In this document: piece after piece, positions 19,934 through 31,682 of the stretch | Position numbering within the stretch: position 1 is the stretch's first letter | How the letters are laid out: each line of letters begins with the position of its first letter | Assembly (NCBI GenBank): GCA_024636955.1 | Contig: JAGXGB010000026.1 | Coordinates: forward strand, 1 to 42,756 | DNA length: 42,756 bases | Origin: Bacteroidales bacterium | GTDB taxonomy: Bacteria > Bacteroidota > Bacteroidia > Bacteroidales > Lentimicrobiaceae | Direction of reading: 5' to 3' | The notes under the pieces: generated by a model | The model's input: only the letters and a program-made list of their open reading frames with translations | What the model was told of the DNA's origin: nothing | Database searches by the model: none | Made by a program: the position numbers and the translations under genes

Positions 19934-20917
19934 ATGGACGAAAAGAAAACATACTTCAACAACCTGATGGTTAAATATTTTCAAGGTGAAGCATCACCTG
20001 AGGAGATAAACCATCTTTATGACTGGTTGGCTGAAGACCCTATTAACAGGAGTTTATTTGAAGAACAACACCAAACCTGGATGTTGCTTACAAAAGACGC
20101 TATTGCGTCCTTAGATATTGACAAGGAATGGGATAGTTTCTCCTCCCGCATAATAGTTAAAAGGAGAACGAAAGTTATAAGCATGCTGAGTTCATGGAGG
20201 GTAGCAGCATCCATTGTTGTATTTGTGATATCGGCCGCTATACTATATTACCTTATATCCACTCCTGAAATGACGGAAGTTTATGCTGAAGAAGCTAACA
20301 TTGAGCATTTACTGCCCGATGGATCGGTAGTTACTTTATACAAGGGGTCAAAAATTGGATATGCGGCATCGTTCGTTAAAGAAGAGCGCAATGTAACCCT
20401 CGAAGGAGAGGCCAATTTCAATGTGCAACATGATAAGAAACACCCCTTTATAGTATCAGGTAATAATTTAAGGATCATGGTACTTGGCACAGAATTTAAT
20501 GTGAATACCAAGGCTGGCGATGGTGAAATGAACGTAGTACTTGAAACAGGTACGGTGTCTTTGTTTTTTAAAGGCAACGAATCAGAAAACCTGATACTTA
20601 AACCAGGCGAAGCTGCGTTTGTCAATACTGAAGAAAAGAGCATGCAAAAGTCGGTAAATACTAACCCCAACTATAATGCATGGCTAACCGGTAACATCGT
20701 TTTCAATAATACTGCGTTGGAAGAGGTAGAAGAGATACTTGAGAAAGTATATCATGTAGAAATAGTTATGGATGAAAACTTGAAAGATTGCACACTTACT
20801 GCTACCTTTGAAAAGCAATCATTTGACCAGGTAATAAATGTCATCAGCGAAACACTCGGAATTAAGGACAGTCGCAGTAAAGATAACATCATCTATCTCG
20901 ATGGGAATTGCAGGTAA
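19934..20917 (+). CDS. FecR-family anti-sigma factor
   Basis: 327 residues. A cytoplasmic N-terminal part (about 1-85) that should bind the sigma factor is followed by one membrane helix (about 90-110, VAASIVVFVISAAILYYLI), then a periplasmic FecR domain (about 115-220, with LPDGSVVTLYKGSKI and VLGTEFNVNT) and a C-terminal DUF4974-like domain (about 255-325). It is 45 bases after the sigma gene and overlaps the TonB receptor gene by 17 bases, so the three are co-regulated. Confidence 0.92.
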   Translation: MDEKKTYFNNLMVKYFQGEASPEEINHLYDWLAEDPINRSLFEEQHQTWMLLTKDAIASLDIDKEWDSFSSRIIVKRRTKVISMLSSWRVAASIVVFVISAAILYYLISTPEMTEVYAEEANIEHLLPDGSVVTLYKGSKIGYAASFVKEERNVTLEGEANFNVQHDKKHPFIVSGNNLRIMVLGTEFNVNTKAGDGEMNVVLETGTVSLFFKGNESENLILKPGEAAFVNTEEKSMQKSVNTNPNYNAWLTGNIVFNNTALEEVEEILEKVYHVEIVMDENLKDCTLTATFEKQSFDQVINVISETLGIKDSRSKDNIIYLDGNCR

Positions 20918-23564
20918 ACTGATCAAGGCCCTAATCCTGAGTCTGCTGTTTCTCACAATTACCATTTCTCTCAAAGCCCAGAACCTGGATAAGGTAATTA
21001 CCATAGATCTCACTTTACAACCTTTAGTAAACGTACTTAATGAGATCACCAAAAAAGGTGATATCCGGTTTTCATACAATCCTCAAAAAATACCCTTAAG
21101 CGAAGAAGTTACGTTACGGGCCATCAACAAACCTGTAAAGGAAGTGCTTGATGAGTTGCTTACACCTTTGAACATAAGCTATTCTGTCACAGGCAGGCAT
21201 GTGGTGCTTAAAAAAGTAGCTTTATCTCAGAGAGGTGAAGTAGTTAGAAAGCTGCATCTTAATCAGCACACCATCAGTGGATTTATCCGCGACAGCATTA
21301 ATGGTGAAGTAATAATTGGCGCAGGTATTTATGATAAAGTTTCGTTGAAAGGCACTATCTCAAACGCATACGGCTTTTATTCACTAACACTGCCCGAAGG
21401 AGCATACACAATAACATACACTGTGATTGGTTATGCACCACGCAATATACTTATAGAACTGGGGAATGACCGCAGGCTTGACTTGTTCATGCAGGAAACG
21501 TCCATTAAAATGAATGAAGTGGAAATTGTTAGTCAACCTGAATTAGCAGTAATTGACCATGTTGGTGGACAAGTACACCTGTCGTCCATTACGCTTAAAC
21601 GAATGGCTGGCTTTGCAGGTAATACAGATGTGATCAAATCCCTTCAATCAATTCCGGGAATTGCAGGATTCGGTGATGGTTCATCATTTTACTATGTGCG
21701 GGGGGGTGATAAAGATCAAAACCTGATGCTCATAGATGAAGCGCCAATTTTTAACCCTGCTCACCTGTTTGGCTTCTTTTCAGCACTGGCACCCGATGCC
21801 ATAAAAGATGTAAAAGCATACAAAGGGGATTTTCCAGCTTCTTATGGTGGAAGGCTATCATCAGTTATAGATATCAGGGCACGGGATGGTAACCTTAACA
21901 GGCTTGGGGCATCAGGTAATATTGGCCTCTTCACCACTGACCTTACCATTGAAGGCCCAATTATGAAAGAAAAGAGTTCATTTATACTTTCGGCACGACG
22001 TTCAAACCTTAATTGGCTCACCCAAGTCAACAGTCTTAGCGAAAAGTCTTTTACCATAAAGTTTTATGACCTGAATGCAAAGCTAAACATCAAGCTTAAC
22101 GATAAGAACCGCATATTCCTCACTGGCTTTACAGGAAAAGACGACTTCAGCCGCTTATCAGCCGCAACCGTTACTACCTTTGGCCTTAGCTGGAATAATG
22201 CTACCGGAACCATTCGCTGGAACCATCTTTTTAACAACAAGCTCTTCATAAATACTACTGCCATCTTCAGCGAGTATAATTATTACCTGTACATGTCGCG
22301 TGAGCAAGATGACTACTGGACTTCCTCCATCATGACCCGCGCGCTTAAGAGCGACTTATCATGGTTCATTAAACCAGGTAATACCTATCGTGCCGGCATT
22401 GAACTTAGCAACTACCAGTCTAATCCCGGCAATGTACATTTTACTGATGAGCTTACACAAAAAGCTGCACCTCGTGTATCACCATATAATTCGCTGGGCC
22501 TGTCAGGTTACTTTAGCAATGAGCGGATTATAGGTGAAAGAATAACCTTAAAAACCGGATTGCGTGTGAGTTCGTGGAGGAATTTAGGCCCTGCAACTGT
22601 ATATTTCTTTGATGCAGCATATCGCCCGTTTGATACCATTGAGGTACAAAAGAGAAGTTTCTATTCGCCATATATCAATGCTGAACCACGTTTGAATATT
22701 ACGTATAAATTGTCGGGTTCATCATCATTAACAGCAGGGTATAGCCGCACAGCACAGTACCTTCAAATATTATCGAATTCAACCAGTCCATTCACATCAC
22801 TTGATATATGGGCTCCTGCAGGTCCTAACATAAAACCCCAAAAAGCCGACCTTCTAACACTTGGATACTTAAAATCATTTAAGAAACTGCAGTTTAGCAC
22901 TGAGGTATTCTATAAAAAGCTTTACAATCAGATTGATTATAAAGACCATGCAAACATGCTTTATAATCCGCTTATAGAAGGTGAATTACGTTTTGGAGAT
23001 TCTAAATCATACGGACTGGAAGTATTGTTGCGCAAAAACGAAGGAATAATTAGTGGCTGGGTTGGCTACTCCTATTCCAGAGTATTGAAAACTATTGAAT
23101 CTATTAATTCAGGAAAAGAATTCCCTGCATCATTCGATCATCCTAATAGTATTTTTGCCAACGTTCTGCTATCAGTAGCCAGGCGCTTAGATATTACAGC
23201 CGGTTGGGTGTATATGACCGGCTCCCCGTTCACCTCCCCTATCGGATTTATGCAATATAACGGCTCTACTGTTCCAATATATGGAAATAAGAACAACGAC
23301 CGTTATCCGGATTACCACAGGCTCGATCTGTCAATGACAATCAAACTGAACGATCCCAATAAGCGCTTTACGCACAATATAGTATTGTCGGTTTACAATG
23401 CATATGGCAGAAGCAACCCTTTCTCCATCAGCTTCAACAAAATCATGGACGACAGAGGCAATATCCACATCCCTGCTGACCTCAGTGGAGATTTAGAAAT
23501 TATTCCTACCAAAATCTCAGTTGCAGGGGCTATTCCTTCAATAAATTACACCTTTAAGTTCTGA
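20901..23564 (+). CDS. TonB-dependent receptor with signalling N-terminus
   Basis: 887 residues from the ATG at 20901. That start gives a signal peptide ending SLKAQ; an earlier ATG at 20838 would add 21 residues deep inside the FecR gene. Domains in order: STN signalling domain (about 28-95), CarboxypepD_reg-like domain (about 120-205), plug (about 225-330, with YYVRGGDKDQNLMLIDEAP), then a long beta barrel ending in F. The STN domain contacts FecR, so ligand binding can be signalled to the sigma factor. No SusD follows; instead a DUF4249 lipoprotein gene starts 3 bases later. The ligand is unknown: siderophore, peptide or metal complex are all possible. Confidence 0.92.
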   Translation: MGIAGKLIKALILSLLFLTITISLKAQNLDKVITIDLTLQPLVNVLNEITKKGDIRFSYNPQKIPLSEEVTLRAINKPVKEVLDELLTPLNISYSVTGRHVVLKKVALSQRGEVVRKLHLNQHTISGFIRDSINGEVIIGAGIYDKVSLKGTISNAYGFYSLTLPEGAYTITYTVIGYAPRNILIELGNDRRLDLFMQETSIKMNEVEIVSQPELAVIDHVGGQVHLSSITLKRMAGFAGNTDVIKSLQSIPGIAGFGDGSSFYYVRGGDKDQNLMLIDEAPIFNPAHLFGFFSALAPDAIKDVKAYKGDFPASYGGRLSSVIDIRARDGNLNRLGASGNIGLFTTDLTIEGPIMKEKSSFILSARRSNLNWLTQVNSLSEKSFTIKFYDLNAKLNIKLNDKNRIFLTGFTGKDDFSRLSAATVTTFGLSWNNATGTIRWNHLFNNKLFINTTAIFSEYNYYLYMSREQDDYWTSSIMTRALKSDLSWFIKPGNTYRAGIELSNYQSNPGNVHFTDELTQKAAPRVSPYNSLGLSGYFSNERIIGERITLKTGLRVSSWRNLGPATVYFFDAAYRPFDTIEVQKRSFYSPYINAEPRLNITYKLSGSSSLTAGYSRTAQYLQILSNSTSPFTSLDIWAPAGPNIKPQKADLLTLGYLKSFKKLQFSTEVFYKKLYNQIDYKDHANMLYNPLIEGELRFGDSKSYGLEVLLRKNEGIISGWVGYSYSRVLKTIESINSGKEFPASFDHPNSIFANVLLSVARRLDITAGWVYMTGSPFTSPIGFMQYNGSTVPIYGNKNNDRYPDYHRLDLSMTIKLNDPNKRFTHNIVLSVYNAYGRSNPFSISFNKIMDDRGNIHIPADLSGDLEIIPTKISVAGAIPSINYTFKF

Positions 23565-23567
23565 ACC

Positions 23568-24443
23568 ATGAACCGGAGATATAACATAGCCGCATCGTTC
23601 TTACTAACTGTGATTATCATTTTCATTCACACAGGCTGTGAAAGGGAAGTTTCATGGCCTTTAGAAAATATCGAAAATGATTTCGTTGTAGTTGAAGGTG
23701 TCATAACCGATGAATACAAGCATCAAACCATTAAGCTAAACAGGACTATCTCATCACCAAATGAAACTCCTGAGCCGGTTTCAGGCGCAGAAGTACTTAT
23801 TAGCACAGTTGATAGTGTTTACACATTTTCAGAAGATTCAACTGCACCGGGGATTTATAATTCAGTTGTACCGTTTGCAGGAATTGTTGAGAATGAATAC
23901 ACTCTGTTTTTAAATGCAGAAGGTAAGATTATAACAGCTAAAGCAATTATGCCACCAGGGGCTGATTTCCAATTCCTGAGATATAGCCGGCAGGGGAACA
24001 AGGAAATGCTATATAATATAGTGTGGGTGGCCAATCAATATAATGCAGACCGCCCTGCAATGTACGAGATAATGCTCGACTGGTCGATGGTTGCCGGGTA
24101 TGAAAATACATCTTATGATAGTACACATGCAAGGCTGCTTTATTACACACTCCCAACCCTTGATGTTAGTCAAATGTTTGCACCTGCAATGGAAAATGTA
24201 CCTTTTCCACGGGGTACACTAATAACTGAGAAACGATACTCTCTAACTACCCAACACGCTGCATATTTAAGGGCCATGCTTGCTGAAACAAAGTTTCAGG
24301 GTGGTCTCTTCAATTCTGTTCCTTCAAATTTGCCGGTTAACCTGAGTAACAATGGACTAGGCTTTTTTGGCGCATGTGCTGTAACTATCAAAACCAGGAT
24401 TGCTGGCAATGCCCCACAAAGAAATTCAAATGAAGATAAATAG
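23568..24443 (+). CDS. DUF4249-family lipoprotein
   Basis: 291 residues. The lipobox is IHTGC (Cys24). The beta-rich body includes VVVEGVITDEYKHQTIKLNRT and SGAEVLIS, typical of DUF4249 proteins, which regularly follow TonB receptors of this STN type in Bacteroidota. It begins 3 bases after the receptor stop, so the two are surely co-expressed. It is probably an accessory surface or periplasmic lipoprotein helping ligand capture; the exact role is unknown. Confidence 0.85.
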   Translation: MNRRYNIAASFLLTVIIIFIHTGCEREVSWPLENIENDFVVVEGVITDEYKHQTIKLNRTISSPNETPEPVSGAEVLISTVDSVYTFSEDSTAPGIYNSVVPFAGIVENEYTLFLNAEGKIITAKAIMPPGADFQFLRYSRQGNKEMLYNIVWVANQYNADRPAMYEIMLDWSMVAGYENTSYDSTHARLLYYTLPTLDVSQMFAPAMENVPFPRGTLITEKRYSLTTQHAAYLRAMLAETKFQGGLFNSVPSNLPVNLSNNGLGFFGACAVTIKTRIAGNAPQRNSNEDK

Positions 24444-24579
24444 CAAATAAATTATCTCAACTTTAGTGTCTTATTCTGGCTATTTCAACAATTTTTCAAA
24501 ATTTATCTAATCAGAGATCAGGGTATAATAGAGTTTATGTGTATTACATGACAGACAACAAAACCAAAATTAGAAGAAC

Positions 24580-25524
24580 ATGAAAACCACTAAATTATTT
24601 TTTCACGTAGCTATAATTATTGCAATAACAGCGGTCACGCTTTCCTCATGCAAAAAAGATAAGCTCGAGAAGGGGAGTATGGATTATACTTCAGTTTCCA
24701 ACCTGTCAGATGATGAACTAAATGTAGAACAGGTATCAAATGAATCAATGGAAGATGTTGAAGGTTTTCTGAACTACCAGGGAAATGACAACTTTAAATC
24801 AGGTGGCAGGGTTCCATGTAATGCTACTGTTGATTCAACAGAAGTTGTTAACGATACAATTACCATCTATATTACTTATGATGGGCTTTCATGTAATGGT
24901 CGCAGATATCGGACCGGCCAGGTAGAGATCAAAAAGCGCGTGGGAACTCACTTTGGTAGGCCCGGGGCAAGTGTACAAATCAGGCATATAGATTTTACTG
25001 TTAGTGCTCCTAACGGCAGCCGGGCTATGACTATCAACAGCTCAAAGATTTTTACCAATGTTACCGGTGGATTTGTATTTATGCTTGGGCATAATGGCTT
25101 CAACTCATTGGTGCATCGCTTACAGGGCAGAATGAATATCAGCTTCAGTAACGGAACCTCACGCACCTGGCTTGTTGCCCGTCAGAAGACTTTCTCAGGA
25201 ACACGTGGTAACCTGTTGCTTAGTGTTGATGGATTCGGTAGTTCAGGTGATTATACTAATCTGGTTACCTGGGGCACAAACCGCAATGGCGAAGACTTCT
25301 TCACTCAAATTTCTGAATCTATTGTATACAAACAGGCTTGCACATGGGATCCTGTTTCAGGTTCAAAGTTCCACCAAATTCCATCAGCCGATAAAAGTGC
25401 ATTGGTTCTATTTGGATATAACAGTGATCTGCAACCAATCACCGGTGATGAATGCCCTACCCATTACCGTATTGACTGGCAAAACGGTACTTATACAGGA
25501 ACAAGGTTTATCCCTCTGCCATAA
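24580..25524 (+). CDS. Lipoprotein of unknown function
   Basis: 314 residues with lipobox LSSC (Cys24) followed by an acidic, flexible stretch (about 30-75) and a beta-rich domain containing four further cysteines (in RVPCNATV, GLSCNGRRY, KQACTWDP and GDECPTHY), which could form two disulfides in the periplasm. I do not recognise the family. It stands alone, 136 bases after the DUF4249 gene and just before a strong terminator. Confidence 0.7.
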   Translation: MKTTKLFFHVAIIIAITAVTLSSCKKDKLEKGSMDYTSVSNLSDDELNVEQVSNESMEDVEGFLNYQGNDNFKSGGRVPCNATVDSTEVVNDTITIYITYDGLSCNGRRYRTGQVEIKKRVGTHFGRPGASVQIRHIDFTVSAPNGSRAMTINSSKIFTNVTGGFVFMLGHNGFNSLVHRLQGRMNISFSNGTSRTWLVARQKTFSGTRGNLLLSVDGFGSSGDYTNLVTWGTNRNGEDFFTQISESIVYKQACTWDPVSGSKFHQIPSADKSALVLFGYNSDLQPITGDECPTHYRIDWQNGTYTGTRFIPLP

Positions 25525-25741: not shown

Positions 25742-25749
25742 TAATTTTG
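25742..25749 (+). promoter_or_regulatory. -7 element upstream of the thioredoxin gene
   Basis: TAATTTTG matches TAnnTTTG and is 62 bases before the ATG of the anchored thioredoxin. The -33 region has no TTTG at good spacing. Confidence 0.5.
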
Positions 25750-25811
25750 CGTCGTCGTAAAAGTTACTTCAAAATCAACAGAATTTCTCAAACAGATCAA
25801 ACTACTAACCA

Positions 25812-26231
25812 ATGTCAATTACAACAATTATAGTATTTGCAATAATAACAGCAATCATTGCTTACTTCTGGTATGCAACTAAGAAAATGAAGAATATGCC
25901 ACTGGTGGCTGAGAACGAGCATATAGTTACATTAACAAATGCCAATATGCAGCATCAGATTAAAAATGGTGTTTCGCTGGTAGATTTTTGGGCTGCATGG
26001 TGTATGCCCTGTAAGATGATGGCGCCGGTAATAAATGATGTTGCACAGGAAGCAGCAGGCAAAGCAAAGATTTGTAAGCTTGATATACAGGAGTTTCAGG
26101 ACATGGCTGCTAAACACTCTGTGAGAAGCATTCCAACAATGATACTTTTCAAGAACGGTAAAGAGATTAACCGCTTTGTTGGAGTTAAATCAAAAGACTT
26201 CCTTATGAATGAACTCAACAAGGTATTATAA
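25812..26231 (+). CDS. Membrane-anchored thioredoxin
   Basis: 139 residues. An N-terminal uncleaved membrane helix (about 3-22) is followed by a full thioredoxin domain (about 35-139) with active site W63-C64-M-P-C67 and the cis-proline in RSIPTMILF. The anchor is followed by lysines (ATKKMKNM), so if the positive-inside rule holds the thioredoxin domain faces the cytoplasm. It heads a run of same-strand genes and is 2 bases before the DUF6132-like gene. It likely gives electrons to a partner in the methyltransferase/radical SAM cluster downstream. Confidence 0.88.
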   Translation: MSITTIIVFAIITAIIAYFWYATKKMKNMPLVAENEHIVTLTNANMQHQIKNGVSLVDFWAAWCMPCKMMAPVINDVAQEAAGKAKICKLDIQEFQDMAAKHSVRSIPTMILFKNGKEINRFVGVKSKDFLMNELNKVL

Positions 26232-26233
26232 TC

Positions 26234-26473
26234 ATGAAGGAAAATTGCGAAACAAATCAGAATTCAAGCACTCTTAAGGAAAAGCTATCATCCCCGCGTT
26301 TCCTCAAAACATTAATTTTTGTTGTTGTGGGTTCATTAGCCGGTTATCTCTACTACTATTTTGTAGGCTGCAATTCCGGCTCATGTGCCATAACCTCAAA
26401 CCCTGTTTCGAGTGTTCTTGCAGGTAGTGCATTAGGTTATTTTATAATTAACCGCCCTTGTCAGGTTTGCTGA
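26234..26473 (+). CDS. Small DUF6132-like membrane protein
   Basis: 79 residues. A soluble N-terminus is followed by two membrane helices (about 24-44 and 58-74) separated by a loop with the motif VGCNSGSCAITSNP; the C-terminus is NRPCQVC. The central Cys-containing motif is what I recall from the DUF6132 family. The two Cys pairs would suit metal or persulfide binding or disulfide exchange with the adjacent thioredoxin. Start is 2 bases after the thioredoxin stop. Confidence 0.75.
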   Translation: MKENCETNQNSSTLKEKLSSPRFLKTLIFVVVGSLAGYLYYYFVGCNSGSCAITSNPVSSVLAGSALGYFIINRPCQVC

Positions 26474-26551
26474 TTATTTTATAAGGGATGCATAACTTTG
26501 GATAGTTGCCTTTGTTACTAATAACAGGAGAGAGCATTTGAAATCATGACA

Positions 26552-26583
26552 TTTGAAAATAAAAAAATATTGAATTATCTTTG
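26552..26583 (+). promoter_or_regulatory. Near-consensus promoter at the methyltransferase start
   Basis: TTTG at 26552-26555, then 20 bases, then TATCTTTG at 26576-26583: a good match to the Bacteroidota -33/-7 consensus. The methyltransferase ATG is only 5 bases beyond, so transcripts from here would begin at or beside the start codon. A second -7-like element, TAACTTTG, is at 26493-26500 and would give a normal leader. Confidence 0.55.
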
Positions 26584-26588
26584 AATAA

Positions 26589-27236
26589 ATGGAAATAAAA
26601 GAAATAAATGTTAGGTATAGCCAGCTTGCAGAAACAGAATGCTGTCTCTCATGCGGCGGAGCTTTGAATTACGCAGTTGCTCAACCCGGTGAAGTTTGTG
26701 TAGATCTTGGAAGCGGACGCGGTACCGATGCAATAAGAATGGCTGAAGCAGTTGGTGAAGATGGATTCGTTTACGGATTGGATATCTCTGACGGAATGTT
26801 GCAGACCGCACGAAAGAATGCAGAGAAACTTGATGTTAAAAATGTAAGCTTCATCCGCAGCACACTTGAGAAACTGGAACTGCCGGATAAAGTTGCCAAC
26901 TTGGTCATTTCCAATTGCACACTAAATCATGCATCAAACAAACAAGCTGTGTGGCATGAGATTCATCGGATACTCAAAAAAGGCGGACGCTTTGTAATCA
27001 GTGATATCTATGCAGTTGAACCAATAGCCGAAGAGTACAAAAATGATCCTGTGGCGGTTGCAGAATGCTGGGCTGGAGCAGTTACACGTGAAGAGTACAT
27101 GAAGCATCTGGTGAATGCAGGTTTTAGCGAAGTGGAGATCATTGAAGAATCAACTCCCTATGCTAAAGGGAAAGCTCTGGTGGCCAGCTTTACCATTGCG
27201 TCAAAGAGATCATTGAAATGCAATTGCAGTAATTAA
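26589..27236 (+). CDS. ArsM-like SAM-dependent methyltransferase
   Basis: 215 residues. The SAM-binding loop is VDLGSGRGTD (about 38-47), with acidic Asp65 in YGLDIS. Cysteines lie where arsenite methyltransferases keep theirs: ECCLSCGG (18, 19, 22), SNC (110) and AEC (160); the last two are 50 apart, as I recall for Cys174 and Cys224 of algal ArsM. The C-terminus KCNCSN adds two more. Known ArsM enzymes methylate trivalent arsenic with thioredoxin as reductant; thioredoxins are encoded on both sides here. But the next genes are a Cys-rich peptide and a radical SAM enzyme, so the target may be the peptide or a bound metalloid. No arsR, arsB or arsC is in the window. Confidence 0.82.
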   Translation: MEIKEINVRYSQLAETECCLSCGGALNYAVAQPGEVCVDLGSGRGTDAIRMAEAVGEDGFVYGLDISDGMLQTARKNAEKLDVKNVSFIRSTLEKLELPDKVANLVISNCTLNHASNKQAVWHEIHRILKKGGRFVISDIYAVEPIAEEYKNDPVAVAECWAGAVTREEYMKHLVNAGFSEVEIIEESTPYAKGKALVASFTIASKRSLKCNCSN

Positions 27237-27300
27237 TTGAGGAATAAAACCATAACAAATCGAGAGTAAAACAAGATTTCAATAATAAAAACATTACAAC

Positions 27301-27405
27301 ATGAAAACAGTGATCAAGAAAAAAATTACGACTAAAACAGTAGTAAAGAAAGAAGCTTTATGCTGTGCCAAGACTTCAAAAACAACTCCCGGCTGTCACG
27401 ATTAA
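27301..27405 (+). CDS. Cys-containing precursor peptide, candidate RiPP substrate
   Basis: A 34-residue reading frame, ATG at 27301 and TAA at 27403-27405. The stop overlaps the radical SAM gene start as TAATG, which is strong evidence that it is translated and coupled. The first ~19 residues are Lys/Thr/Val-rich (nine lysines overall) like a leader; the rest carries Cys21-Cys22, a Thr/Ser/Lys stretch, and ends P-G-Cys32-His-Asp. A short leader plus Cys-rich core beside a SPASM radical SAM enzyme is the usual layout for peptide maturases. It lies 64 bases after the methyltransferase. The mature product and cleavage site cannot be predicted. Family not recognised. Confidence 0.7.
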   Translation: MKTVIKKKITTKTVVKKEALCCAKTSKTTPGCHD

Positions 27406-28733
27406 TGAACTTCTCAAAACATAACATTTATTCACTGATAGATGGTTCTGATAACCATTATATAGTTAACCTGCTCAGTGGGAGTGCCGATATACTGGAT
27501 CCCGAGGAATTCCGAATGCTAGGCGATTACATGGCGGGAAGGGAAGTACCTGCAGAATTCCTTACTGAGCTTGAGTTGAAGGGTTATGTGGTGGATGAAA
27601 CTAAAGAAGTAAAGCTTTACAAGCAAAAGTACCTTGATTTCATAGATTCAAGGGACGATGATGAAATACAGCTTTTCTTCGTTCCTAATTATAGTTGCAA
27701 TTTCGCTTGCACCTACTGTTACCAGGATGAATACTCAAACAAAAGCAAGCCCGGATCGCAGGAAATGGTTGATGCCTTTTTCAGATACATAAACCTTGAG
27801 TTTGCAGGACGACGTAAATACCTCACGATCTTTGGGGGTGAGCCACTAATGAATTCTCCTGCACAAAAGGAGATGATCAGTAACCTGGTTAATCAGGCTA
27901 CCGACTCCGGTCTCGAGATCTGCATCGTAACCAACGGTTATTCGGTAGTTGACTATATTGACATACTGAAAGCCGGCCGGATAAGGGAGATACAGATAAC
28001 ACTCGATGGTATTGGAAGCATACATGATTCCCGGCGCTTCCTCAAAGGCGGTGGTGCCACGTTCGATAAGATAGTTGAAGGAATTGATGCATGTTTACGA
28101 AATGAATTGCCTGTTAACCTGCGTATGGTGATTGATAAGGAAAATATTGGCGGACTACCTGCTTTAGCTGACTTCGCAATAGCCAGAGGCTGGACTGCCA
28201 GCCCGTACTTCAAAACCCAGGTAGGCAGAAACTATGAACTTCATCACTGTCAGGCCACTGCCGGTAAACTATTCGACCGTTTCTCAATGTATGAGCAAAT
28301 CTACAAGCTTACTGAAGAGCATCCACAGATTGCAGAGTTTTATCAGCCTTCGTATTCAATAACAAAGTATCTGGCTGAAAACGGCACATTGCCCGATCCT
28401 CTGTTCGACTCATGCCCTGCATGTAAAACTGAGTGGGCATTTGATTATACAGGGCAGATTTATTCATGTACCGCAACCGTGGGTAAGGAAGGTGAATCAC
28501 TGGGCACATTTTATCCTGCAGTAACGCGTAAGGATGAAATGATAAAAGCATGGGAAGAAAGAGACGTTATCTCCATTGAGGCATGTAGCAATTGCAGTAT
28601 GCAACTGGCTTGCGGTGGAGGCTGTGGTGCTATTTCAAAGAATAACACAGGCACAGTGCATTCACCTGATTGCCGCCCTGTGAAAGAACTTCTAGGACTT
28701 GGTTTTTCAGCTTTTAAGCTTGATCAGAGTTGA
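27405..28733 (+). CDS. Radical SAM/SPASM peptide maturase
   Basis: 442 residues from the ATG at 27405, chosen because it overlaps the peptide stop by one base; an in-frame ATG at 27360 would lie inside the peptide gene. N-terminal ~85 residues look like a small peptide-recognition domain. The radical SAM cluster ligands are C98-x3-C102-x2-C105, with GGEP at 144-147. The SPASM domain is complete: C340-x9-G350-x4-C355, then C394-x2-C397-x5-C403-x3-C407, and C423, giving two auxiliary [4Fe-4S] clusters. Such enzymes use SAM to form a 5'-deoxyadenosyl radical and crosslink or otherwise modify a peptide. The adjacent 34-residue peptide is the obvious substrate. Confidence 0.9.
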   Translation: MNFSKHNIYSLIDGSDNHYIVNLLSGSADILDPEEFRMLGDYMAGREVPAEFLTELELKGYVVDETKEVKLYKQKYLDFIDSRDDDEIQLFFVPNYSCNFACTYCYQDEYSNKSKPGSQEMVDAFFRYINLEFAGRRKYLTIFGGEPLMNSPAQKEMISNLVNQATDSGLEICIVTNGYSVVDYIDILKAGRIREIQITLDGIGSIHDSRRFLKGGGATFDKIVEGIDACLRNELPVNLRMVIDKENIGGLPALADFAIARGWTASPYFKTQVGRNYELHHCQATAGKLFDRFSMYEQIYKLTEEHPQIAEFYQPSYSITKYLAENGTLPDPLFDSCPACKTEWAFDYTGQIYSCTATVGKEGESLGTFYPAVTRKDEMIKAWEERDVISIEACSNCSMQLACGGGCGAISKNNTGTVHSPDCRPVKELLGLGFSAFKLDQS

Positions 28734-28838
28734 TTGTTGGTTCTGCCCTGGTGGCATACCAATGAGATGGTATATTAGAATTACCTGACAGAATAGAGTA
28801 TCACGATTAATAAATATAGATTATTAGAATCATAGAAC

Positions 28839-30107
28839 ATGAAAGAAATAAGTGCAGCAGAATTTGAAACAGAAGTATTGGAAGGTGGGAAAGTAGTACT
28901 TGACTTCTATTCCACCGAATGTCCTCCATGCGAGGCCCTTGCGCCTAAATTTGAGGGATTGTCAACACTATATGGTGATGACATTAAGTTTGTGAAGATG
29001 TTCAGGCAGGAAAACAGGGAACTGGCAAATGAATTAGGAGTTAAGTCGTCACCTACCCTGCTATTTTTCGATAAAGGAAAAGTTGTAGCCGATTCACTTT
29101 CCGGAGGTATTAAACGCAGTGAAATTATTCATCATCTTGACACAATGTTGCCTCAGGATAGGGTTGATCAGATCAAGTCAGGCATCAAACCTTCGGTATC
29201 TGAATTTGATGTTATCATACTGGGAGCAGGACCCGGCGGACTAACCGCAGGACTTTACCTCTGCCAAAGCAAGATCAACACAGTGCTTATTGATATAGCA
29301 CTACCGGGCGGACACGTTTCCACTACACATGAAGTATCAAATTACCCGGGGTTTATTGAACCACAGCCAGGTTATATGCTTTCGCACAACATGTCGGAAC
29401 AAACCAAATTATGCGGTACCGTTTATAAAGTAGCGGTTGATGTCACCAAAATTGATCTGGAAAAGAAAGAAGTAATCATAGATGAATTTGAAACCGTAAG
29501 AGCAAAGAAGATCATTATAGCCACCGGCACATCACCTAATCTTATGGGCATTCCCGGTGAGAAAGAACTGAAGGGCAAAGGTATATCCTACTGTGCAACC
29601 TGCGACGCGAAATATTATGGCGACAAGGAAGTAGTGGTTGTTGGAGGTGGCAACTCAGCAGTTGAGGAAGCTGATTTTATTAGCAAATTTGCAAGCAAGA
29701 TTACCATGGTGCATCAGTTTGCAGGTTTTACTGCCAACAAACATGCGCAGGAAAAACTACTGGCAAACAAAAAAGTGAGCGTACTCTTTGAACATGAACC
29801 CAGGTCGTTCGTGCGTGAAGGCGATAAGATGATAACACTGGTTGAAAATCTGAAAACAAAAGAATTAACACGACTGGAAAGCGACGGCGTATTTGTTTTT
29901 ATCGGCATGAAACCCAATGTTGCACTGTTTGACAACAAACTTGAAACCGATTCATGGGGCTATATAAAAACCGATGAGGACATGCGTACAAGCATACCCG
30001 GTATATATGCCGTAGGTGATGTGATCAGTAAAAAATACCGACAAATAACAACTGCTGTAGCTGATGGTACCATTGCTGCCATTGCCATAGCCAAAGAATT
30101 GAATTAA
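28839..30107 (+). CDS. Thioredoxin / thioredoxin-reductase fusion
   Basis: 422 residues. An N-terminal thioredoxin domain (about 1-105) has the active site C28-P-P-C31 and cis-proline at 72. After a linker, a flavoprotein reductase domain (about 123-422) has the FAD loop GAGPGG (129-134), the redox pair C252-A-T-C255, and a nucleotide fold GGGNSAVEEA (269-278). The family's NADPH motif HRRDxFRA reads HQFAGFTA here, so the arginines that bind the 2'-phosphate are gone; it may use NADH or another donor. The order thioredoxin then reductase is the reverse of the Mycobacterium leprae fusion. It follows the radical SAM gene by 105 bases and probably powers the cluster's thiol chemistry. Confidence 0.88.
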   Translation: MKEISAAEFETEVLEGGKVVLDFYSTECPPCEALAPKFEGLSTLYGDDIKFVKMFRQENRELANELGVKSSPTLLFFDKGKVVADSLSGGIKRSEIIHHLDTMLPQDRVDQIKSGIKPSVSEFDVIILGAGPGGLTAGLYLCQSKINTVLIDIALPGGHVSTTHEVSNYPGFIEPQPGYMLSHNMSEQTKLCGTVYKVAVDVTKIDLEKKEVIIDEFETVRAKKIIIATGTSPNLMGIPGEKELKGKGISYCATCDAKYYGDKEVVVVGGGNSAVEEADFISKFASKITMVHQFAGFTANKHAQEKLLANKKVSVLFEHEPRSFVREGDKMITLVENLKTKELTRLESDGVFVFIGMKPNVALFDNKLETDSWGYIKTDEDMRTSIPGIYAVGDVISKKYRQITTAVADGTIAAIAIAKELN

Positions 30108-30127
30108 CAGTAAAAAACAAAAATATC

Positions 30128-30532
30128 ATGAGCACAAACCAATTTATCATTGAGCAGGTAAGTCCTTTCAATGTGAATGAAACTGTTGAAAAGATCATTG
30201 AAGTTGCAACCCGCAAAGAGTGGCAGAACCCTGCCAACCATGATCTCCAGAAATCACTTGCCAGGAGCAACAAACATGTGCGGCCAGTGCAGGTAGTTGA
30301 AATATGTAAACCTGAATACTCAGGTACTATGCTTGAAAAGAATGATGAGCGAATTGTATCTGTGATGATGCCATGCCGCATATCAGTATACGAGAAAGAA
30401 GATGGTAAAACTTATATTGCTTTACTCAACACTGCTGCTATGAGCGAAGGCATGCCTGAATCAATAGCTGGTGCCATGAAAGGTGCATCAGATGAAAGTT
30501 TTGATATTGTAAGGGAAGTAATAAGCAACTAG
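30128..30532 (+). CDS. DUF302-domain protein
   Basis: 134 residues, no signal peptide. The DUF302 pattern is visible in VRPVQVVEICKPEYSGTML, MMPCRISVYE and TYIALLNTAAM. The two cysteines (in EICKP and MPCRI) are typical of this family, whose function is not established; members often sit near thiol or sulfur redox genes. It starts 20 bases after the thioredoxin reductase fusion, probably in one transcript, as the last gene of the cluster. Confidence 0.83.
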   Translation: MSTNQFIIEQVSPFNVNETVEKIIEVATRKEWQNPANHDLQKSLARSNKHVRPVQVVEICKPEYSGTMLEKNDERIVSVMMPCRISVYEKEDGKTYIALLNTAAMSEGMPESIAGAMKGASDESFDIVREVISN

Positions 30533-30606: not shown

Positions 30607-30678
30607 GGCCCTGTAGTTCAATGGATAGAACGGAAGTTTCCTAAACTTTAAATATAGGTTCGATTCCTATCGGGGCTA
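30607..30678 (+). tRNA. tRNA-Arg (anticodon CCU)
   Basis: All arms fold: acceptor stem GGCCCTG with CGGGGCT (two G-U wobbles), D stem GTTC/GAAC, anticodon stem GAAGT/ACTTT with loop TTCCTAA, and T arm ATAGG-TTCGATT-CCTAT. Positions 34-36 read CCT, decoding the arginine codon AGG. The 3' CCA is not encoded. A terminator follows closely. Confidence 0.93.
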
Positions 30679-30690
30679 CTACTATAAAAC

Positions 30691-30740: not shown

Positions 30741-31682
30741 TTATGGGAGTAAAACTGCATCAATTGCATGAATTACACCATTGGTTCCCTGCACATCTGT
30801 GGCAACCACATTCACATCTGAATTGATGGAAACACCTGATGCACTTACCATTAACTCGAGATTATTACCCTCATTCAAGGTAGGTACTGATCCACTGGAA
30901 ACCTGAGCTGCCGTTACATTACCTGAAACAACATGGTATAGAAGGATTGGAGTAAGTTGCTCAGCTGTAAGGTCGTTTACTCCTGAAACGCCCAATGTAG
31001 CAAACAGTGCATCAAAGGCACTATTGGTTGGGGCAAAGATTGTAAATGGACCATCTGTACTCAGAGCTTCAACCAATCCGGCTTTTATTACAGCCAGAAC
31101 AAGTGTGCTAAAATTAGGATTGTTTATAGCATGATTTACTACGCTTGCAGGCAAAATAACCTTATCAATTGCATGGATCACACCATTTGATGCCATTACA
31201 TCAGCAACAATTACTTTGCTACCGTCAACTGTAACACCGGAATCTTTCTTTACAAATAATTTAACGCTATTGTTACCGGGAGCTCCGGTATTTAATGAAG
31301 GAACGTAACCTGAAGCAGTGATATCAGATGAAGCAATTTTACCTGCAACCACGTGGTTGAGTAATATAGGTGTTAGTGTTGCTGCATCCAAATCAGCAAT
31401 TCCGCTTACGCCTAACTGATCAAAAAGTAGTTCAAATGCATCATTGGTAGGTGCAAAAACTGTGAATGGACCATTTCCCTGCAATGTTGTTGCGAGATTG
31501 GCTTTAGTAACCGCCTCTACAAGAATAGAAAAACGTGCATCAGCAGATGCAACTTCCACTATATTTTTAGGCGCTTGTACAGGAACCTCCGGGGTTTCCT
31601 CATCTTTTGAACATGAAGTGAACATCGTAAATGATGATACTGCTATGGCCATAAGGCTAATTTTAAAAAATGTTGTTTTCAT
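30741..31682 (-). CDS. Lipoprotein with two FAS1 (fasciclin) domains
   Basis: 313 residues. Lipobox FTSC (Cys24), short acidic linker (SKDEETPEVP), then two FAS1 domains (about 38-170 and 180-313). Each has the family's GPFTVFAPTNDAF / GPFTIFAPTNSAF box and a later VHAIDKV or HAIDAV segment. FAS1 proteins are usually adhesion or matrix proteins at the cell surface. It stands alone, with a 10-bp inverted repeat about 50 bases upstream of its start. Confidence 0.92.
   Translation of the reverse strand: MKTTFFKISLMAIAVSSFTMFTSCSKDEETPEVPVQAPKNIVEVASADARFSILVEAVTKANLATTLQGNGPFTVFAPTNDAFELLFDQLGVSGIADLDAATLTPILLNHVVAGKIASSDITASGYVPSLNTGAPGNNSVKLFVKKDSGVTVDGSKVIVADVMASNGVIHAIDKVILPASVVNHAINNPNFSTLVLAVIKAGLVEALSTDGPFTIFAPTNSAFDALFATLGVSGVNDLTAEQLTPILLYHVVSGNVTAAQVSSGSVPTLNEGNNLELMVSASGVSINSDVNVVATDVQGTNGVIHAIDAVLLP

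Follow-up and report, generated by a model that had tools for sequence, protein, structure and literature searches.

A candidate RiPP-type cassette joining a near-fixed cysteine peptide to an ArsM-like methyltransferase, a radical SAM enzyme and a thioredoxin reductase fusion

Why would a bacterium keep an enzyme of the arsenite methyltransferase type beside a 34-residue cysteine peptide, a radical S-adenosylmethionine (SAM) enzyme and a thioredoxin reductase? The question is raised by a locus on contig JAGXGB010000026.1 (positions 1 to 42,756, forward strand, hereafter the window) of a Bacteroidales bacterium of the family Lentimicrobiaceae (GenBank assembly GCA_024636955.1, a draft genome of 3.22 Mb). 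An initial annotation, made from the sequence of the window alone, had proposed that seven same-strand genes here form an undescribed peptide-modification system. NCBIfam and Pfam scans, together with the translations, confirmed all seven at 25812-30532, each of the kind that had been named. Our best reading is that they represent a cassette of the type that makes ribosomally synthesised and post-translationally modified peptides (RiPPs), undescribed so far in the literature and in the NCBIfam, Pfam and PADLOC libraries searched. The features are as follows.

25812..26231, plus strand: thioredoxin with an N-terminal hydrophobic segment; accessory (TIGR01068, 114.5 bits, cut-off 96.8; CMPC motif in the translation)
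26234..26473, plus strand: DUF6132 small membrane-type protein with Cys motifs; accessory (PF19628, 24.6 bits, gathering score 23.2)
26589..27236, plus strand: short ArsM-like SAM methyltransferase; constant (NF008823, 185 bits, cut-off 263)
27301..27405, plus strand: 34-residue precursor peptide; constant (homologues at 85/90 loci)
27355..27402, plus strand: conserved C-terminal core of that peptide, ALCCAKTSKTTPGCHD, family pattern AxCCxKx[S/T]xxxxGCHD (unforced profile search)
27405..28733, plus strand: radical SAM/SPASM peptide maturase whose N-terminal part resembles a RiPP recognition element (RRE); constant (CX3CX2C and SPASM Cys pattern)
28839..30107, plus strand: thioredoxin-thioredoxin reductase fusion with CPPC and CATC motifs; constant (PF00085; TIGR01292, 311 bits, cut-off 343)
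30128..30532, plus strand: DUF302 protein; accessory (PF03625, 52.2 bits)

The genes were compared across 90 loci: ten from a search of related genomes (the source genome included) and the top 80 of the 192 relatives found for the radical SAM gene. Most of the latter come from records titled Bacteroidales or Bacteroidetes, and lake names are frequent in their isolate labels. Some genomes are present twice (e.g. L003/L042, L005/L078), and conservation counts are thus not over independent genomes. All seven genes are real, but only four are constant, namely those for the methyltransferase, the peptide, the radical SAM enzyme and the reductase fusion; the genes for the membrane thioredoxin, DUF6132 and DUF302 are accessory. 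Thioredoxins similar to the first gene product were found at many loci, though not all, whilst DUF302 clusters with the radical SAM gene at at least 37 of the 90 loci and DUF6132 at at least 41, counts that are lower bounds because ten loci have only about 1.5 kb of flank. At 39 Spirochaetota-type loci (again with some genomes twice) DUF302 was not seen and DUF6132 was seen once.

The 34-residue open reading frame can be taken as a real gene, since homologues adjoin 85 of the 90 radical SAM genes. In the window, the likely start of the radical SAM gene overlaps the peptide stop (an in-frame ATG at 27360 would give a longer protein). A closer inspection of the five loci without an adjacent peptide revealed that two contigs (L068, L074) begin at the radical SAM gene, and that in three genomes (L049, L060, L062) the peptide and methyltransferase genes are kept together away from the radical SAM gene, in L049 about 10 kb off on the same contig. 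The methyltransferase lies upstream on the same strand at 79 of the 85 peptide-bearing loci; of the remaining six, five are truncated by the end of a contig, and at the last (L008, which is L114) it sits 2.8 kb further up, behind a TonB receptor. The initial annotation had suggested looking in relatives for the peptide frame beside the radical SAM gene and for all three genes side by side, and both arrangements were found to be the rule.

Earlier peptide patterns forced CC, GC and H/N/Q, or C-14, C-13, K-11, G-4 and C-3. Because these patterns imposed the conserved residues, the count was redone with an unforced profile, built from 20 members (far relatives can be missed) and run on 50,593 distinct stop-ended frames from all 228 loci gathered. 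A-16, C-14, C-13, K-11, G-4, C-3, H-2 and the terminal D were identical in all 129 distinct 35-residue ends recovered (per-position counts were printed for 126 ends, the other three being read from the same output). Q-15 was kept in all but two, position -9 was Ser or Thr, and no end was without CCxK and GCHD. Among 83 distinct DNA sequences encoding the 16-residue core, the synonymous difference per site (pS) was 0.81 against a nonsynonymous value (pN) of 0.096, with every fixed residue encoded by at least two codons. The N-terminus, MKSL[VI]KK, is often conserved and resembles a recognition leader, whilst the middle segment is variable; the core holds three cysteines and some leaders two more. 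The peptide has no NCBIfam family, and Pfam gave only a sub-threshold BTK match. In the 762 most distant pairs, ranked by the radical SAM enzyme, the core retained 71% mean identity, compared with 38% for the radical SAM enzyme and 40% for the methyltransferase. In antimicrobial RiPPs the opposite is usual. Moreover, the peptide is single copy in 6/6, 32/32 and 10/11 positive genomes of three phyla. A nearly fixed core, diverged enzymes and a single copy together point to a fixed product and not to an arms-race antibiotic.

Profile searches for the peptide, made phylum by phylum and independently of neighbouring genes, gave the same picture. In the phylum of the window (392 genomes), the peptide profile and the radical SAM protein matched the same six genomes, the source genome included. 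In the phylum of G494 (record titled Spirochaetia, 198 genomes), each was found in 32 genomes, 31 of them shared. Both exceptions lie at contig ends: in G685 the peptide is near one, and a divergent radical SAM frame begins there but runs off the contig, and in G562 a radical SAM fragment stops there. In the phylum of G496 (record titled Myxococcales), searched from the peptide side only, 11 of 235 genomes carried 13 peptides; an ArsM-like gene adjoins every one, and a radical SAM gene adjoins 12, being on the same contig for the last (G742). At four peptides of this phylum an enzyme-substrate fusion was considered and rejected, the long frames being other-frame read-through over the upstream gene. 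The near-fixed peptide end thus recurs across records titled Bacteroidales, Ignavibacteria, Kapaibacterium, Spirochaetia and Myxococcales, the cassette being sporadic in several distantly related bacterial groups.

The methyltransferase follows the same distribution. Its short form was found in exactly those 10 of 99 relatives (source genome included) that have the radical SAM enzyme (Fisher's exact test, p = 6e-14), with a cut at E <= 1e-60 that was chosen after a gap down to 1e-37 was visible. Distances between radical SAM enzymes and between methyltransferases were strongly correlated (r = 0.93 over 106 loci, which are not independent genomes). The reductase fusion is present at 87 of the 90 loci, two of the three misses being contig ends, and its C28, C31, C252 and C255 are invariant (75/75). 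In one group of Spirochaetota-type genomes it lies upstream of the methyltransferase instead. Taken together, sequence comparison shows a real peptide gene with a near-fixed end, accompanied by the radical SAM enzyme and the methyltransferase and, with few exceptions, by the reductase.

What the radical SAM enzyme is likely to do can be approached from its cysteines and its fold. C98, C102 and C105 (CX3CX2C) and the SPASM residues C337, C355, C394, C397, C403 and C407 were found in 83/83 members, C423 in 82 of 83 (one X) and C340 in 80/83. An extra cysteine, C282, is also present in all 83 close members, but is not kept in the most distant ones. The best NCBIfam matches over near full length were the CefB model NF038107 (148 bits, cut-off 600) and TIGR04463 (144 bits, cut-off 525), and the model for the maturase of SCIFF (six cysteines in forty-five residues), TIGR03974, gave 76.8 bits against a cut-off of 425; no NCBIfam model was passed by either this enzyme or the methyltransferase. 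An AlphaFold2 model built from 22 family members had a mean predicted local distance difference test (pLDDT) score of 91. Its residues 1-90, with block mean confidence of at least 90, are predicted to form three strands followed by helices, in an RRE-like arrangement. The best fold match was CteB (5why; E = 8e-18, template modelling score 0.66 by query, 16% identity), in a loose alignment (root mean square deviation of about 8 over 458-483 columns), and CteB is the closest solved protein by sequence too. A review describes the leader of CteB as bound in strand form to the RRE of the enzyme (PMC8326336).

The methyltransferase is built on the ArsM plan, with arsenite methylation a putative activity. 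Its C22, C110 and C160 align with C72, C174 and C224 of CmArsM, are invariant in 70/70 cassette methyltransferases and are common to 23/23 other ArsM-family proteins; cysteines at these positions bind arsenite in ArsM, as stated in an excerpt of PMC5552862. The first 13 Foldseek matches of its predicted fold were all ArsM/AS3MT chains. However, the cassette proteins are shorter (205-217 residues in 10 members versus 266-406 in the 23 others), and all four scanned fell below the NF008823 cut-off of 263 (185, 192, 186 and 208 bits). They have lost the N-terminal CCG..CC segment of the other 23 proteins, and the region of the fourth, N-terminal cysteine of CmArsM (Cys 44) is missing, whilst a CC pair at 18-19 is present in 67/70. 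CC18-19, C37, H114, W122, Y141, E159 and W161 are typical of 10 cassette members; a distant Spirochaetota member (L180) is without several of these. The ArsM models of the arsinothricin and arsenosugar pathways were likewise not reached (NF040538, 97.5 bits against 500; NF038099, 77.2 against 400).

On balance, we consider it probable, with ample room for doubt, that the cassette is a RiPP pathway whose product carries a modified, thiol-based C-terminus and acts not as an antibiotic but as a conserved cofactor or carrier in redox or sulfur handling. The lysine-rich MKSL[VI]KK leader would bind to the RRE-like N-terminus of the radical SAM enzyme, which would then modify the core by means of a deoxyadenosyl radical, most likely through a Cys thiol-to-carbon link or else by altering the C-terminal Cys-His-Asp. 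The ArsM-like enzyme would transfer a methyl group to a soft atom in the peptide, in the simplest case the sulfur of a cysteine, using its three-thiol pocket. Electrons from NADPH may pass through the fused reductase to thioredoxin, keeping the cysteines of methyltransferase and peptide reduced, and the same chain may recycle the finished product. RiPP precursors with S-methylated cysteines are known, though rare, PtyS being an enzyme that methylates precursor cysteines (PMC11285071, in part), and AS3MT, of the ArsM type, S-methylates its own cysteines without arsenic (PMC9013690, in part). The relocated methyltransferase-peptide pairs support this RiPP reading, the two genes having moved together in three genomes.

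Several observations weigh against the RiPP cofactor. We infer the chemistry on the core in its entirety. Cysteine automethylation of AS3MT was raised by glutathione, whilst thioredoxin, its reductase or NADPH singly gave no increase (PMC9013690). It would be unusual for an enzyme that handles no metalloid to keep all three arsenite-binding cysteines. A released small cofactor would need a general protease, because the constant genes include no dedicated peptidase or exporter. The gene set itself is not without exceptions: one genome (G049) has no reductase within the 15 kb examined; those of L068 and L074 gave no ArsM-like match, although in both the contig ends at the start of the radical SAM gene, just where an ArsM-like gene would be expected; G101 carries a fragment of a second cassette-type methyltransferase; and G892 has three peptide-methyltransferase-radical SAM sets (L212, L213 and L205 on contigs C70, C80 and C149). 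The TonB receptors found within or next to a few loci would be consistent with a metal ligand that is transported. Lastly, neighbouring families that suggest sulfur or redox work each occur in at most 10 of the 114 neighbouring proteins scanned, a figure without a background control.

Those 114 same-strand proteins comprised 113 picked by eye from 154 without near-duplicates and one from L114, and they matched 103 Pfam families. The 25 commonest include DUF1847, a YgaP-like membrane domain, 4Fe-4S, Crp, DUF134, OsmC, TonB plug, class V aminotransferase, sigma factors, metallo-beta-lactamase, Cys/Met enzymes, sulfur transport and rhodanese. The YgaP-like, OsmC, sulfur transport, rhodanese and Cys/Met families are related to sulfur or redox functions, and no arsenic family is among the 25. 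With this in mind, the neighbourhood leans towards sulfur or general redox work over arsenic defence, subject to the same want of a control.

This bears on the foremost alternative, in which the three core cysteines would hold As(III) (or Se or Sb), the ArsM-like enzyme would methylate the peptide-bound element, and the radical SAM enzyme may join the element to carbon, much as ArsL and ArsS do with small molecules. The initial annotation had likewise suggested a peptide that is S-methylated or carries arsenic, selenium or another soft element. The invariant C22, C110 and C160 agree with such a cargo, as do two known ArsM-radical SAM pairs that act in organoarsenical synthesis (PMC8552651, in part) and the naming of thioredoxin and thioredoxin reductase as cofactors that support arsenic methylation in vitro (PMC9013690, in part). 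However, an arsenic-resistance context was looked for and not found: besides the lack of arsenic families among the 25 commonest neighbours, other ArsM-family proteins (at most 39% identical) occur in 6/10 cassette genomes compared with 30/89 others, which is not significant (p = 0.16). Moreover, the radical SAM enzyme belongs with the SPASM peptide maturases, whereas ArsL likely has a single cluster, and the methyltransferase has lost the Cys segment found at the N-terminus of the other ArsM proteins. We therefore regard an organo-element peptide as unlikely, if worth keeping in view, the three retained cysteines leaving room for an As- or Se-bearing peptide. Its fullest form, a ribosomal peptide with an organo-As or organo-Se centre whose core cysteines would present the element for methylation in place and fixation to carbon by the SPASM enzyme, the fused NADPH-thioredoxin system driving the cycle, seems quite unlikely; if true, it would be the first element-bearing RiPP class of its kind, widespread and essentially invariant.

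A metal ligand or metallophore, in which the modified Cys/Cys/Cys/His/Asp tail would bind a soft metal (Cu(I), Hg(II) or Fe, for example) and be taken up through a TonB receptor in some hosts, is distinctly improbable. The conserved Cys, His and C-terminal Asp would suit it, and the plug domain is carried by 4 of the 114 neighbours, TonB receptors lying between the methyltransferase and the peptide in L114 (L114:5767-8019, Pfam-confirmed), downstream of the radical SAM gene in L115 (L115:5346-7388, from translation) and at L076:9295-11598 (from translation or the pooled scan). However, they are found at few loci, and their position varies. TonB receptors are, moreover, common in Bacteroidota. 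No exporter family recurs among the clustered neighbours, and the core hardly varies. It is more doubtful still that the peptide is left unmodified as a small redox or sulfur carrier reduced by the fusion, with the radical SAM enzyme and methyltransferase serving other substrates. A dedicated reductase at 87 of 90 loci and some sulfur-related neighbours would fit, but the near-perfect co-occurrence with a radical SAM enzyme of the peptide-maturase type, and the joint travel of methyltransferase and peptide, argue against it. An antimicrobial thioether RiPP (a sactipeptide or ranthipeptide bacteriocin), already disfavoured, is highly improbable despite a radical SAM enzyme related to thioether-forming maturases, given the near-fixed core with a variable middle, the single copy in nearly all positive genomes, the spread over several phyla and the want of a recurrent exporter or immunity gene.

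How the cassette came to lie here can be judged from relatives. The radical SAM gene is absent from the other genomes of the genus of the window (0/18 at E 1e-30). Three genes upstream (20838-25524) are in the same order in all five of these 18 genomes that were examined, and no cassette gene lies in the stretches examined. Conservation of this block without the cassette fits a gain in this lineage or a loss in others. Spread on plasmids was not apparent, 72,556 plasmid records giving two weak matches at about 27% identity. A tRNA-Arg (CCT) gene lies directly downstream of the cassette at 30607-30679, adjoined by a gene for a two-domain fasciclin protein (30741-31682, minus strand). As the five relatives keep the upstream block with neither cassette nor tRNA in the stretches examined, the tRNA site may be an integration site.

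Other genes were seen near the cassette. A protein of about 150 residues with an IS1595-type zinc ribbon is encoded on the opposite strand near -1.8 kb at 20 of the 90 loci (L045:298-759, minus strand; one copy Pfam-checked), and may be a domesticated transposase-like regulator. A DUF5714 protein is found in four Spirochaetota-type loci (in L188 starting at -1485 from the radical SAM gene; one copy Pfam-checked), in three of them just upstream of the ArsM-like gene. At six Spirochaetota-type loci (L195:5480-5935; some maybe one genome twice) a MarR-type regulator with a CC pair, which may be a thiol- or metal-sensing switch, precedes the methyltransferase. A DUF1847 gene lies between the radical SAM and reductase genes in L031 (9333-9884) and 16 other loci. 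When four proteins were scanned with PADLOC, none matched a defence family over its full length; viperins and mads_2 alone gave matches, to parts of domains.

Is the cassette, then, one of the systems already known? SCIFF and its maturase (CteA-CteB) share with it a SPASM maturase with an N-terminal domain of the peptide-binding type and a short Cys-rich precursor. However, SCIFF has six cysteines in forty-five residues and the cassette core three, the fold alignment with CteB gives 16% identity with the TIGR03974 cut-off unreached, and the portion of the review seen names no ArsM-like enzyme, and thioredoxin is nowhere mentioned in that review (PMC8326336). The maturases of the CefB (NF038107) and TIGR04463 families score best for the radical SAM enzyme over near full length, yet far under their cut-offs, and the peptide is without an NCBIfam match. 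ArsM itself (NF008823; CmArsM 4fr0/4kw7) has the same fold, SAM motif and three As(III)-binding cysteines, but is longer and bears the N-terminal CCG..CC segment, and the cassette enzyme scores below its cut-off. The arsinothricin arsQML genes and the arsenosugar ArsM-ArsS pair also couple ArsM with a radical SAM enzyme; their products are small molecules, ArsL likely has one cluster, and no peptide is described in the excerpts of PMC8552651.

Mycofactocin and pyrroloquinoline quinone (PQQ) likewise combine a short precursor with a SPASM enzyme. Their precursors, MftA and PqqA, have a nearly fixed C-terminus. A single radical SAM enzyme works on both Tyr and Val in the mycofactocin pathway, according to PMC8326336. 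The cassette differs in that its core has no such Tyr target and its constant genes include no separate RRE chaperone or peptidase; it relies on cysteines and is linked to both an ArsM-like enzyme and a thioredoxin reductase. No description of this gene set was found in the literature searched, whose coverage left out preprints and most subscription journals, and the excerpted text of a Bacteroidales RiPP survey mentions neither thioredoxin nor arsenite (PMC10352776). The proposal of an undescribed RiPP-type cassette therefore holds within the libraries and literature searched: the peptide is conserved beside the radical SAM gene, and no characterised pathway was matched. By analogy, our best reading is that the proposed peptide cofactor would work like mycofactocin or SCIFF.

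A near-fixed core of 16 residues, alongside enzymes that retain only about 40% identity, is the signature of a defined product needed by cells, like PQQ or mycofactocin. If this is true, mostly uncultured lineages would possess an unnamed thiol-based peptide cofactor with its own reductase. Moreover, the capture of an ArsM-type methyltransferase by a peptide pathway would make two questions testable, namely which other methyl acceptors the ArsM pocket can serve and whether metalloid chemistry can take place on peptides.

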